A stretch of 64,000 bases of DNA from Desulfotomaculum nigrificans DSM 574 (GTDB lineage Bacteria > Bacillota > Desulfotomaculia > Desulfotomaculales > Desulfotomaculaceae): the NCBI RefSeq assembly GCF_000189755.2, contig NZ_KI912183.1, forward strand, positions 312,257 to 376,256, read 5' to 3'. Shown here in pieces: positions 25,124 to 63,560 of the stretch. Position numbers and translations under genes: made by a program. Each line of letters begins with the position of its first letter. Position 1 is the first letter of the stretch. The notes beneath the pieces were generated by a model. It saw only the letters and a list, made by a program, of their open reading frames with translations. It searched no databases and had not been told where the DNA came from.

Positions 25124-25331
25124 GTGCGGCCGGGCAAGGTCGCTAATTCTAGTGGGTGTAAGCCCCACCAGGGTAATGCCTAACCAGCAGCCCTGTAGCT
25201 AGTTCTTGGAGACGTTCAGGCAACTGAAAGTTTTAAGCGTAGATCGGCAAAATAGCGGGCCGAAAGCGAAAGCTGAAGTGATTGAGCATCGAAAACGCCT
25301 TGTGATAACTGCTTGGAGGCGGTGATACGTG
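25124..25331 (+). ncRNA. Structured RNA fragment, possibly group II intron 5' domain
   Basis: The region opens with GTGCGGCC, matching the GTGYG start of group II introns, and contains hairpins such as GTGGGTGTAAGCCCCAC and CAGGGTAATGCC...AGCCCTG. A dense GA/GC-rich stretch follows (about 25243-25301). No maturase follows. It could instead be another mobile-element RNA, such as the leader RNA of an IscB-type element. I am sure only that it is structured and non-coding. Confidence 0.4.
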
Positions 25332-50254: not shown

Positions 50255-50267
50255 GTGAAATTAGATG

Positions 50268-50355
50268 TATATTGGGCAAACCCGTCGAAAGGCGGTGGCG
50301 CAAAGCCAAGGGCCTAAGGAGTAAAGAAATTCTATGGCAGCCGGTTGCAGCAAAG
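50268..50355 (+). ncRNA. Cyclic di-GMP-I (GEMM-I) riboswitch
   Basis: It carries the GEMM-I core: GGGCAAACCCGTCGAAAGGC with the GAAA tetraloop, GGCGCAAAGCC, GGGCCTAA, and the second arm TATGGCAGCCGGTTGC. The tetraloop and receptor parts and the AAAGCC...CCTAA joining segments are all present. It is followed by a terminator and then the GGDEF/HD-GYP gene. Confidence 0.9.
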
Positions 50356-50386: not shown

Positions 50387-50451
50387 TAATATACGAGTTG
50401 TCAAGGTTAGACAGCTTCTGGTGCAAAGCCCAGACGGGAGGTGTGGTTAAT

Positions 50452-52278
50452 ATGGAAGAAATAAAAACTATGGAAGAACATAAGCTTTTGCAACGGCTAC
50501 ACGCCACGTTCATCGAACATACCGCCGTCATGCTCCTCATCGAGCCTATAACCGGCAAAATCGTAGAAGCCAATCCTGCCGTCTGTACTTTTTACGGCTA
50601 TACCAGGGAAGAAATCTTAAACATGCATATTCAGGACATCAACATGCTGCCCAAGGAAGAAGTAGAAAGACGGCGGCTCATGCCCTTAAAGGAAAAACAA
50701 AGGTATTTTGTTTTCCCGCATCGTTTAAAGAGCGGGGAAATCAGGCTGGTTGATGTTTATTCCTGCCCTGTAACTTATAGCGGAGAAAAATTGCTTTTTT
50801 CCATCATTTTCGATGTTACGGACCGGGAGAAGTATAAAGTAGAACTATACCGGGAAAAAGAACTGCTGCGTACCACCCTCCTTTCCATCGGCGACGGAGT
50901 AGTCACCACCGACCAAACAGGCAGAATAACATCAATGAATAAAGTGAGCGAAGAGATTACAGGCTGGAATGAAGAAGAAGCAAAAGGCAGACTTTTTTCA
51001 GAGGTTTTCAAACTAGTCAACGAAGCTACCGGGGAAGAGATTGAAGAACCAGTAGCTAAAGCGCTCCGGACGGGAAAAACTATCGGCTTGGCTAATCATA
51101 CAGCTTTAATTAGCAAAGACGGGCGTAAGATACCAATAGCCTACAGCGCTGCTCCCATCAAAGACGAAAAAGGGCAAACTTTCGGTGTGGTCATGGTTTT
51201 CCGTGATGTTACCCGGGAAAAAGAACAGCAGGAGAAAATCCTCTACTTAAGCCACCATGATTCCCTGACGGGACTATTCAACCGCCGGTTTATGGAAGAA
51301 CAAATCAAGCGGCTGGATATGTCCCGGGAACTGTCTCTTACAGTAATTATGGGCGATGTCAACGGGCTGAAACTGGTTAACAATGTCTTCGGCCACGAAG
51401 ACGGGGACAAGCTCCTTAAAAAAGCGGCAGAGACAATAAAGGAAAGCTGCCGGAAAGAAGACATCATCGCCCGCTGGGGAGGGGACGAATTTCTTATCCT
51501 CATGCCCCGGACTTCCGCCAAAACCGCAGAAGAAATCATTGAACGGATTAAAAACAGGTGTTTGAAGGATAGCGACGGACCCGTGCAACTTAGCATAGCC
51601 ATGGGTTATGCGGTGAAGACAAAAGCATCAGAAAGCCTCTGGCAAATTGTGAAAGAAGCAGAGGAATGGATGTACCGTCATAAGCTTCTTGAGAGCAAAA
51701 GCTACCATAATGGCATTATCAATACCCTGCTTGCCACCCTGTTTGCCAAAAGCATGGAAACGGAGGAACATGCCGAACGTTTGAAAAACTACTGCCTTAC
51801 AATAGACAGAGAAATGGGACTTTCTGTAAAAGAACTGGGCGAGCTGGCTTTATTAGCTGTGCTGCATGACATTGGAAAAGTAGGTATTAAAGAAAGTGTC
51901 TTACAAAAGCCCGGACCTTTGACTGCTGCAGAATGGGAGGAGATGAAAAAGCATCCCGAAATCGGCTACCGTATCGCCCGAAACATTCCGGAACTTTCGG
52001 CTGTGGCCGAATACATCCTCGCTCATCATGAGCGTTGGGACGGTAAAGGCTATCCGAGAGGTTTAAAAGGCGAAGAAATCCCCTTACTCTGCCGTATTCT
52101 GGCTGTGGCAGACGCTTATGACGCCATGACCAATGATAGGACATACCGGAAAGCGCTGAGCAGGGAAGAAGCAATTGCTGAGATAAAAAGAAATGCGGGA
52201 ACCCAGTTTGAGCCAATAGTTGCAGACGTTTTTTTAAACATAATAGCAAAGGAAAATATATTAAAAGCATTCCTGTAA
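50452..52278 (+). CDS. PAS-PAS-GGDEF-HD-GYP cyclic di-GMP turnover protein
   Basis: A 608-residue cytoplasmic protein. Two PAS domains (~15-265) precede a GGDEF domain with intact RWGGDEF near 341-347 and an HD-GYP domain with VLHDIGKVGIKE near 470 and HHERWDGKGYPRGLKGEEIP. GGDEF makes and HD-GYP degrades c-di-GMP, so it could do both, with PAS input choosing. The ATG at 50452 has GGGAGGTGTGG upstream. It is controlled by a c-di-GMP riboswitch. The last residues (LKAFL) come from the IS110 relic that abuts it, so the native C-terminus may be trimmed slightly. Confidence 0.93.
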   Translation: MEEIKTMEEHKLLQRLHATFIEHTAVMLLIEPITGKIVEANPAVCTFYGYTREEILNMHIQDINMLPKEEVERRRLMPLKEKQRYFVFPHRLKSGEIRLVDVYSCPVTYSGEKLLFSIIFDVTDREKYKVELYREKELLRTTLLSIGDGVVTTDQTGRITSMNKVSEEITGWNEEEAKGRLFSEVFKLVNEATGEEIEEPVAKALRTGKTIGLANHTALISKDGRKIPIAYSAAPIKDEKGQTFGVVMVFRDVTREKEQQEKILYLSHHDSLTGLFNRRFMEEQIKRLDMSRELSLTVIMGDVNGLKLVNNVFGHEDGDKLLKKAAETIKESCRKEDIIARWGGDEFLILMPRTSAKTAEEIIERIKNRCLKDSDGPVQLSIAMGYAVKTKASESLWQIVKEAEEWMYRHKLLESKSYHNGIINTLLATLFAKSMETEEHAERLKNYCLTIDREMGLSVKELGELALLAVLHDIGKVGIKESVLQKPGPLTAAEWEEMKKHPEIGYRIARNIPELSAVAEYILAHHERWDGKGYPRGLKGEEIPLLCRILAVADAYDAMTNDRTYRKALSREEAIAEIKRNAGTQFEPIVADVFLNIIAKENILKAFL

Positions 52279-53235: not shown

Positions 53236-53339
53236 TATGCTAAAAATGGGTGTTGTGTGCAACAGAATGTTATAATCCGCCCCAAATTCATAACTATAAG
53301 TTATTTGTAATATGATAAGTTATTATGATAAGATAACAT

Positions 53340-53435
53340 GGGGAGAACGGGGAAGGTCCCCCCACGGGCTGCAAACCCGCTGGCCTGCCTTTGGTCCAGG
53401 TGGGAGTTCGGTTCGATTCCGACTTCTTCCCTCCA
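53340..53435 (+). tRNA. Selenocysteine-tRNA-like tRNA with Cys anticodon GCA
   Basis: 96 nt ending in encoded CCA. The acceptor stem is 8 bp (GGGGAGAA with TTCTTCCC). A one-base linker leads to a D arm GGGG-AAGGT-CCCC, and the anticodon loop is CTGCAAA (GCA, Cys). There is a long variable arm, and a T arm of 4 bp (TCGG/CCGA) around TTCGATT plus a bulged T and one more pair. The 8-bp acceptor, long variable arm and missing base between stems are tRNA-Sec features. The discriminator base is T, a cysteine identity element, not G. The best reading is a minor tRNA-Cys of the modified 8/4 type. Confidence 0.82.
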
Positions 53436-53444
53436 AATATAGAT

Positions 53445-53520
53445 GGGTCATTAGCTCAATTGGTAGAGCAGGCGACTCTTAATCGTCAGGTTGGGGGTTC
53501 GATTCCCTCATGGCCCACCA
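53445..53520 (+). tRNA. tRNA-Lys (CTT)
   Basis: A 76-nt standard cloverleaf. Acceptor GGGTCAT / ATGGCCC, D arm AGCTCAATTGGTAGAGC, anticodon loop CTCTTAA (CTT, Lys), T arm GGGGGTTCGATTCCCTC, CCA encoded. An integrase relic lies about 0.5 kb downstream, so the gene may once have been an integration site. Confidence 0.95.
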
Positions 53521-53523
53521 ATT

Positions 53524-53549
53524 ACCGGGATGAACCCGGTGTTTTTTTT
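53524..53549 (+). terminator. Terminator of the tRNA pair
   Basis: ACCGGG / CCCGGT with a short loop, then GTTTTTTTT, 4 bp after the tRNA-Lys CCA. Confidence 0.88.
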
Positions 53550-54927: not shown

Positions 54928-55672
54928 TTTGAAGTTGATAGACTTAAAGAAAAGCTGGATAAACAAAGGCCCTTGTATCCTGACTTAATGGCTACCATCG
55001 CCCAAAAATTCCGGGAGGACTGGACCTACAATACCAATGCTGTTGAGAGCAACACCATGACCTTGCAGGAGACTGCGTTTTTTCTGCGGGAAGGCTTGAC
55101 CGTCAAAGGCCGCACCCTAAAGGAACATTTGGAGATGGTCAATCATGCTGAGGCTGTAGACTTTCTGCAAGAAGCCATCAAACACCGGGACTTGACCGAA
55201 GGACTAATAAAAGAATTTCACGCTATGCTTTTCTCTGGTATCAAGACCATGGCAGGGGGTAGTCACTGTTGTGACCGGGGCCTATAAAACCAAAGATAAT
55301 CACGTACTAACTGCCAGCGGTCAAATCCATCACTACGCAGCGGCCACCCAGGTTCCTGCTGGAATGGAGAATCTTATCAATTGGTACAATGACAGCAAGG
55401 CGAAAATGCACCCCATCGAATTAGCTGCTCTCTTTCATCACCGGTTTGTTGCTATCCACCATTTTCCCGATAGGAACGGTAGGGTAAGCCGGTTGTGCAT
55501 GAACTATATCCTAATGAAGAACGGATACCCTCAAGCCATCATCCGCAAAGAGAACCGGTGGGACTATTACACGGCACTGGAGGAAGCGGATAACAATAAG
55601 CCGGAAGCGTTTGTGCAGTTAGTAGCTGATGAGGTTAAGCACAGTTTGGAACTAATGTTAACGGAGATATAG
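54928..55672 (+). pseudogene. Fic-family protein gene, frameshifted
   Basis: The first part reads VDRLKEKLDKQRPLYPDLMA and YNTNAVESNTMTLQETAFFL, with the usual Fic N-terminal helices. After SGIKTMAGG the frame changes in a G-run at about 55255. The rest (VVTVVTGAYKTKDNHVLTAS) includes the Fic core HHRFVAIHHFPDRNGRVSRL. That motif has Arg where HPFxDGNGR has its first Gly. The frame opens just after a TAG without a clear start. Fic enzymes AMPylate proteins; this one should not be functional. Confidence 0.8.
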
Positions 55673-62729: not shown

Positions 62730-62838
62730 TTACTTTATCAAGAGTGGTGGAGGGACTGGCCCTATGAAACCCGGCAACCGGCCAATGACTTGGCGGCGGT
62801 GCCAACTCCTGCGGGACAATGATGTCCGAAAGATGAGG
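62730..62838 (+). ncRNA. SAM-I (S-box) riboswitch
   Basis: Hallmarks in order: CTTTATCAAGAGTGGTGGAG, GGGACTGGCCCTATGAAACC, CGGCAACCGGCC, GGTGCCAACTCCTGCGGG and GAAAGATGAGG. These are P1 to P4 and the kink-turn of the S-box. It precedes a terminator and the methionine synthase genes, so transcription stops when S-adenosylmethionine is plentiful. Confidence 0.95.
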
Positions 62839-62859
62839 TGCGCCATGGATGTTAAGCTC

Positions 62860-62892
62860 CTGACGCCCTGTGGTGTTGGGTGTTTTTATTTT
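62860..62892 (+). terminator. S-box terminator
   Basis: ACGCCC / GGGTGT with a 9-nt loop, followed by TTTTATTTTTT, just before the ribosome site GGAGGT. Confidence 0.8.
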
Positions 62893-62906
62893 TTGGAGGT
62901 TTTTGG

Positions 62907-63560
62907 ATGCTGTTACCACAGGTACCTGTATCACTAAAATATGAGCAAGTTTTAAGGTATTTAGGCCATGGTAACCAATCATTTTCCGGAAAACCGGACC
63001 GCTTTATTACTGAAACTATCACCCGAGGCAGGGCTTTACTTCACCCCGCTGCGGTGGTGGCGGACATGTATCCACATGAACAGGAAGTTTGGCCGCAAAG
63101 ACTATTAAAATGTTGTCTTAAGGCCAGCGTGGTGGCGGTAACTGTGGGGGAAACTATTGAACAGGAAACCAACCGGTTATTTCAAATAGGAGAAACTGCG
63201 GCGGCGGTGATACTGGATGCGGTAGCCACAGCCGGAGTAGAGGCGGCAGCCGATTGGGTGGTGCATATTTTGGCCCAACAGAACAGGGGGCGTGGTTTAT
63301 TTGCCACCCCCAGGTATGGCCCCGGGTATGGGGGACTGGCGATGGAGTATCTGCCGACACTGTATGAACTGGCAGGGGCACAGCAAATTGGTATTACTTT
63401 TAATCAATTTTACCAGATGACACCGGTAAAAACCCTGCTCTTTGTAGTTGGCTGGAGTATCAATAAATATGACCACCGGTCCAATTGTGACTGGTGCAGT
63501 AAAAAGGATTGTCAATTTCGTAAGATATGGGAGGAAGGAGAAGATCAAGGTGTCCTTTAA
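62907..63560 (+). CDS. Methionine synthase reactivation-domain protein
   Basis: A 217-residue protein resembling the C-terminal activation domain of cobalamin-dependent MetH, which binds SAM and re-methylates oxidised cobalamin. Visible segments are ETITRGRALLHPAAVVADMY, VTVGETIEQETNRL and RYGPGYGGLAMEYLPTLYEL. The C-terminus has SNCDWCSKKDCQFRK, a cysteine cluster probably binding metal. ATG at 62907 has GGAGGT upstream. It overlaps metH, so in this organism the domain is a separate subunit, as in other Clostridia. Confidence 0.87.
   Translation: MLLPQVPVSLKYEQVLRYLGHGNQSFSGKPDRFITETITRGRALLHPAAVVADMYPHEQEVWPQRLLKCCLKASVVAVTVGETIEQETNRLFQIGETAAAVILDAVATAGVEAAADWVVHILAQQNRGRGLFATPRYGPGYGGLAMEYLPTLYELAGAQQIGITFNQFYQMTPVKTLLFVVGWSINKYDHRSNCDWCSKKDCQFRKIWEEGEDQGVL

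Follow-up and report, generated by a model that had tools for sequence, protein, structure and literature searches.

The genome of Desulfotomaculum nigrificans DSM 574 carries, at positions 53340-53435 on the forward strand of the window (the whole stretch of 64,000 nucleotides that was analysed, which sits in a single contig of 3.05 Mb), a tRNA gene of 96 nt that combines the frame of a selenocysteine (Sec) tRNA with the identity elements of a cysteine tRNA, namely the anticodon GCA and the discriminator U73, and that ends in an encoded CCA. It is of a known kind, the published class of selC* tRNA-Cys or tRNA-ReCys, which is reported in related sulfate-reducing bacteria to replace Sec with cysteine, and it probably recodes Sec UGA codons with cysteine by way of SelB. 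What is added here is the spread of such genes, their partnership with SelB, the presence of two forms in one genome, and the promoters of such genes. The names tRNA-ReCys and tRNA-ReSec are presumably those used for these genes by Vargas-Rodriguez in 2018; either that work or that of Mukai in 2017 reportedly surveyed them.

Structure of the tRNA and its detection

Direct reading of the bases, all on the forward strand, gives an acceptor stem of eight pairs, one of them G-U (53340-53347 with 53424-53431), a single linker base, C53348, leading to the D arm (53349-53361), an anticodon loop CTGCAAA (53369-53375) with the anticodon at 53371-53373, a long variable arm of seven pairs (53384-53404), a T arm (53406-53423) whose five pairs are interrupted on the 5' strand by one bulged U (53408), the discriminator at 53432 and CCA at 53433-53435. 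A sequence-only reading of this DNA had described the Sec-like frame, that is the eight-pair acceptor stem, the one base before the D stem and the long variable arm, together with GCA and U73 as cysteine identity elements; the frame is real by base reading and covariation alike, and the identity elements are read directly. The anticodon loop is of the ordinary sort, retaining U33 and A37, and the two outermost pairs of the anticodon stem are both mismatched. These two mismatches and a differing D loop, seen in comparison with the other copy of the gene in the genome, had suggested that the window copy is a decaying duplicate, an idea that was dropped because the same form of the anticodon stem recurs in relatives (L041, L043, L046, L050, L112 and L115).

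It is in the T stem that the first description needs amendment. The stem runs G-C, U-A, bulged U, C-G, G-C and G-C, so that the bulge stands as proposed and five pairs are counted around it in place of the proposed four. The 3' strand from the T loop to U73 measures 13 nt in all 72 members of the class (those read in the wider search described below), and with five T pairs this length makes '8/5 plus a bulge' a better fit to the letters than '8/4 plus a bulge'. In 68 of the 72 a T stem with the bulge makes a better fit than one without, and the bulged base there is C in 55, G in 6, A in 5 and U in 2, U being the base in the window copy. The outer two T pairs hardly vary, and covariation therefore cannot confirm them.

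Detection of the gene by general means is uneven. A search that hid overlapping matches of the same clan aligned the Rfam model of tRNA-Sec, RF01852, to 53340-53431; the score there, 43.1 bits (E 7.1e-7), falls slightly short of the gathering threshold of 47. The general tRNA model RF00005, searched genome-wide with E allowed up to 0.1, returned 65 matches and none at this tRNA, and ARAGORN, whose only call in the window is the neighbouring tRNA-Lys, misses it as well. The folding energy is no better than that of shuffles (z -0.18, with 81 of 200 shuffles folding as well), compared with z -3.01 for the second copy of the genome (299168-299264). Since the folding energy of the window tRNA is ordinary for its composition, the case must be carried by comparison.

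Conservation and covariation

The two copies found in the genome served to build a model, which was run against ten genomes of the family and 113 of the class. Filtering was stricter in the class and phylum searches, and the gene may therefore still be present in genomes without a match (19 of the 113 in the class). All ten family genomes hold a ReCys gene, in one or two copies each. Across the class there are matches, selC included, in 94 of the 113 genomes, and all 126 of these matches were read, yielding 72 ReCys genes in 64 genomes, nine UCA genes in nine other genomes, and 45 selC genes. U73 is present in every one of the 72 ReCys genes and GCA in 70, the other two (L141 of G031 and L149 of G027) having ACA in its place. 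U33 is replaced in six of the 72, in six families, by C in L119, L124, L136, L154 and L173 and by A in L151.

Covariation was read from an alignment of 70 relatives, comprising 63 of the 72 class genes and seven named ones with identical rows counted once; those left out are mostly close copies (L045, L127, L129, L131, L141, which has ACA, L147, L152, L165 and L172). Of the 33 named stretches gathered for comparison as a whole, 27 were used, the other six being duplicates of whole-genome loci. In the alignment the pairing proposed is seen in 94.5% of cells as against 81.2% in shuffles, changes on both sides occur at 22 of the 31 pairs, and pairing drops to 46 to 63% when the partner is slid by one to three columns. 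Covariation gives its best support to the predicted acceptor, D and variable arms, with changes on both sides at 6/8 acceptor pairs (the eighth included), 4/5 pairs of the D stem and 6/7 of the variable arm. The eighth acceptor pair is A-U in 57 relatives, G-C in six and U-A in five, with gaps in two. Pairing is poor at the top of the anticodon stem, where the outermost model pair forms in only 6/70 and the next is unpaired in 20/70. The alternative against which the fold had been set, the 7/5 cloverleaf of an ordinary tRNA-Cys, does not describe the gene: the eighth pair covaries, the variable arm has seven pairs, and the general tRNA model, at E up to 0.1, has no match there. A tRNA that a standard gene finder misses is thereby confirmed as real and conserved.

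Relation to known tRNA classes

The available text of one review (PMC7609411, citing Mukai 2017) describes selC* tRNA-Cys with GCA, U73 and a bulge in the T stem from Firmicutes and other phyla, and together with the available text of a second source (PMC11415595) it places the class in Firmicutes, D. nigrificans included. The link to published minor cysteine tRNAs that the sequence-only reading had drawn is thus borne out. The window gene shares with this class the Sec-like frame, the eight-pair acceptor stem, the long variable arm, the T-stem bulge, GCA and U73, and it lies in a genome with selC, SelB and an ordinary tRNA-Cys. It differs in that the review, in its available text, names an A at 51a and a short T stem, whereas the window copy has a bulged U (the class mostly C) and a T stem of five pairs rather than four, and in that its genome holds two forms. 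The same text describes selC*-selB*-cysS* operons in Desulfobacterales and Syntrophobacterales, whose tRNA is of the same class but has UCA where the window tRNA has GCA; a second selB or cysS over the cut-off was found in none of the ten family genomes.

Other relatives of this architecture stand further off. With canonical tRNA-Sec (selC, RF01852) the window tRNA shares the eight-pair acceptor stem, the long variable arm and its Rfam similarity, but it has GCA rather than UCA, U73 rather than G73, a single base before the D stem and the bulge, its 43.1 bits fall short of the gathering score, and it is 57% identical to the best of the 13 selC rows compared. The UCA genes, which resemble tRNA-ReSec, have the same backbone and are found, within the class, in nine genomes that belong to a single family, where UCA goes with A73 or G73; none of these nine genomes has a ReCys match. 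Allo-tRNAs, with their serine identity and an acceptor branch of 12 bp arranged as 8/4 or 9/3, differ from the window tRNA in its U73, its GCA and the 3' strand of 13 nt common to the 72 class members. U73 speaks against serine identity.

The host genome and the reading of UGA

The host genome contains three of the genes for which the sequence-only reading had advised a search, namely a standard tRNA-Cys, selC and selB. A true selC, with the anticodon UCA, lies at 417772-417865 of the genome, one SelB and one CysRS (cysS) exceed the cut-off, and an ordinary tRNA-Cys of 68.6 bits is present elsewhere, so the window gene is not the only tRNA-Cys of the genome. A second ordinary tRNA-Cys (L063:7317-7388, minus strand), in a partly repeated tRNA cluster, looks damaged, with 31.5 bits and no CCA. 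Each of the genome's two FdhA genes contains a single in-frame TGA, and in the one that was read a SECIS-like hairpin with GGTCT in its loop comes after this codon. A GGTCT loop after TGA is found also in four of the five FdhA genes read in relatives. In the fifth relative (G004) FdhA has TGC (L255) and the GGTCT loop is lost, while SelB, a selC match and the ReCys gene are kept, and the persistence of ReCys there counts against a recoding role.

The FdhA comparison bears on one alternative in particular. SelB might deliver tRNA-ReCys to cysteine codons accompanied by a SECIS, as the cysteine counterpart of the sense-codon Sec insertion at UGC/UGU that is known elsewhere according to the available text of PMC8124441, and both the pairing of GCA with UGC/UGU and the association with SelB described below would suit such a scheme. 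The TGC gene of G004, however, the one cysteine-codon FdhA looked at, lacks the GGTCT loop that all five TGA genes read possess, and the UCA variants in relatives point to UGA, which together make delivery to cysteine codons quite improbable.

The association with SelB is itself a matter of comparison. SelB is present in all ten family genomes and in 63 of the 64 ReCys genomes of the class, against a background of 109/113, and the only class ReCys genome without a SelB match (G110) is 57% complete. SelB being near universal in the class, the association was tested on, and rests on, 398 genomes sampled from the phylum, in each of which only ten candidates were scored. In that sample SelB accompanies the gene in 29 of the 29 genomes with a ReCys gene read, from 13 families, as against 258 of all 398 (Fisher p about 2e-6, computed ignoring relatedness); 15 of the 29 fall inside the class and 14 outside it. 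Another 47 sample genomes have best matches of at most 70.3 bits, of which one was read and is selC, and as these genomes are largely unread the 29 is a lower bound. An RF01852 match above 60 bits stands at a site apart from the ReCys gene in 61 of the 64 class ReCys genomes (anticodons read in part), and the three ReCys genomes without one are at most 72% complete.

These data also weigh on another alternative, that the tRNA is an ordinary elongator which, its shape notwithstanding, serves UGC/UGU as an extra supply of Cys-tRNA. GCA matches these codons, the window copy keeps U33 and A37, and the gene recurs in one or two copies in each of the ten family genomes searched; yet an ordinary tRNA-Cys is already there, a relative is reported, in the available text of PMC11415595, not to use EF-Tu for such a tRNA, and an ordinary role would not need the SelB that is present in every one of the 29 phylum-sample genomes where the gene was read. 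An elongator role is accordingly judged unlikely.

The preferred reading remains recoding of Sec UGA with cysteine. The class is published, and a D. nigrificans relative is reported, in that same available text (PMC11415595), to decode UGA as cysteine through SelB and not EF-Tu, which makes a Cys-for-Sec recoding tRNA the best reading of the window gene; of the functions that the sequence-only reading had offered, it is the suppressor that is favoured. By analogy with the reports on this relative, CysRS would most likely charge tRNA-ReCys with cysteine through GCA and U73, and the eight-pair acceptor stem and bulged T stem would hinder EF-Tu and suit SelB, which would in turn bring Cys-tRNA to UGA codons with a SECIS hairpin, for example that of FdhA. 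We infer further that selenoproteins would be finished with cysteine when Sec-tRNA is short, a rescue role under selenium shortage. The role in decoding has one imperfect side. Decoding tRNAs almost always keep U33, and the loss of U33 in six of the 72 ReCys genes, with ACA in two, fits such a role imperfectly.

Two forms of the gene and their surroundings

The window copy is followed, after a gap of 9 nt, by a tRNA-Lys (CTT) at 53445-53520 (+), called by ARAGORN, and then by an intrinsic-terminator-like stem-loop with a T-run at 53523-53541 (+). That the two tRNAs are transcribed together, as stated earlier, is likely in view of the short gap and the one terminator-like hairpin that comes after tRNA-Lys. 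Elsewhere in the window there is a c-di-GMP-I riboswitch (50265-50352) directly before a PAS-GGDEF-HD gene (50398-52278), a SAM riboswitch (62732-62839, 88.2 bits) that precedes an ORF (62880-63560) matching no Pfam family, two matches to group II introns (25159-25328 and 1104-1177), and a Fic-family gene (54973-55672) that appears as a pair of overlapping ORFs, each in its own frame, with the Fic match confined to the second.

The second tRNA of the same type in this genome (299168-299264 of the genome; L003:1497-1593, minus strand) stands behind tRNA-Leu(CAA) and has a terminator-like hairpin and T-run of its own downstream. The two copies are identical in 80 of 97 aligned columns, and the window copy is closer to genes of relatives, nearest among them L041 of G004 (94%) and L113, L110, L115, L112, L050 and L043 (92 to 93%), than to the other copy of its own genome, which groups with a form that is confined to its genus among the genes read. 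A tRNA-Lys(CTT) lies at most 600 nt after a ReCys gene in eight class genomes (this one, G002, G004, G024, G027, G031, G032 and G044), and a degenerate tRNA occupies the Lys position in G025. Desulforamulus aquiferis and Desulfoscipio geothermicus likewise have two genes each. In a tree of 92 sequences (72 ReCys, 7 UCA and 13 selC) support is modest, at 0.67 to 0.89 among the clades listed, and the Lys-linked genes split into two groups, so that the tree does not date the duplication. Word searches of the available literature beyond the two primary papers turned up neither a genome with two forms nor sigma-H-type promoters of these genes.

Promoters and the possibility of regulated expression

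Ahead of the window gene a likely promoter, TTGTAA and TAAGAT separated by 18 nt (53305-53334, +), was recognised by conservation and ends five bases before the tRNA, with an extended -10 TATG at 53324-53327. A scan with consensus promoters listed one site, compared with 0.9 expected, which is no evidence, and this promoter was not that site. An extended -10 at most 26 nt from the tRNA precedes 18 of the 72 ReCys genes as against 1.7 in shuffles, and it is mildly enriched elsewhere (4/45 selC genes against 0.65, and 3/27 ordinary tRNAs of the genome against 0.41). A palindrome over the -35 region of the Lys-linked copies, seen by eye in AT-rich DNA, was uneven between loci and is not claimed.

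A different kind of promoter may serve a number of the relatives. The two boxes of a sigma-H promoter are spaced by 11 or 12 nt. Their consensus is RNAGGAWWW and RNNGAAT in the available text of PMC8510167. Sites agreeing at 12 or 13 of the 13 positions lie 9 to 43 nt before 23 of the 72 ReCys genes, against 0.78 in shuffles, a post hoc count in that the pattern was noticed by eye before counting and the exact consensus was looked up only after that. At the same score no site precedes any of the 45 selC genes (0.12 in shuffles), and 1.15% of 80-nt stretches reach it in the relatives' own DNA of AT >=60%. Pattern searches found 8/72 ReCys genes with a strict and 18/72 with a loose pattern, and none among the nine UCA genes or the 27 ordinary tRNAs of the D. 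nigrificans genome. The 23 genes, for example L149, L164, L139, L153 and L119, come from eight families whose members share descent. A sigma-H gene is present in all 23 of their genomes and in 106 of the 113 of the class, a near universality on account of which its presence in the 23 says little. No sigma-H-like site scoring at least 11 was found before the window gene or in its family. Seven genomes have several copies. In four of them, all of family f4 (G024, G026, G027 and G031), an extended -10 precedes one copy and a sigma-H-like site another, and in three of the four it is the copy with the extended -10 that is linked to tRNA-Lys. It is possible, if doubtful, that ReCys constitutes a regulated cysteine channel for selenoproteins with divided labour, in which a copy under a housekeeping promoter, the kind found in the window, would be joined in several lineages by a sigma-H copy that comes into play when growth slows.

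The sigma-H-like sites also touch on the remaining alternative, that the tRNA donates no cysteine at the ribosome and acts as a regulator or decoy, binding SelB (or SelA) to tune Sec insertion or signalling the supply of cysteine. Such sites in 23 of the 72 genes suggest regulated expression in relatives, and six genes, each from a different family, have lost U33, whereas none has lost U73. Strict U73 and near-strict GCA nevertheless argue for charging, UGA decoding is reported for the relative in the available text of PMC11415595, and in the window copy the anticodon loop is ordinary and no sigma-H-like site reaches a score of 11; the chance that it is such a regulator or decoy is very slim. 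The co-occurrence with SelB and the split between promoters predict that cysteine would appear at SECIS-bearing UGA codons under selenium limitation, and that expression in the relatives would depend on sigma-H. If the class works as reported, D. nigrificans and its relatives would possess a built-in route by which selenoproteins are finished with cysteine, and UGA would stand for either of two amino acids, depending on which is supplied.
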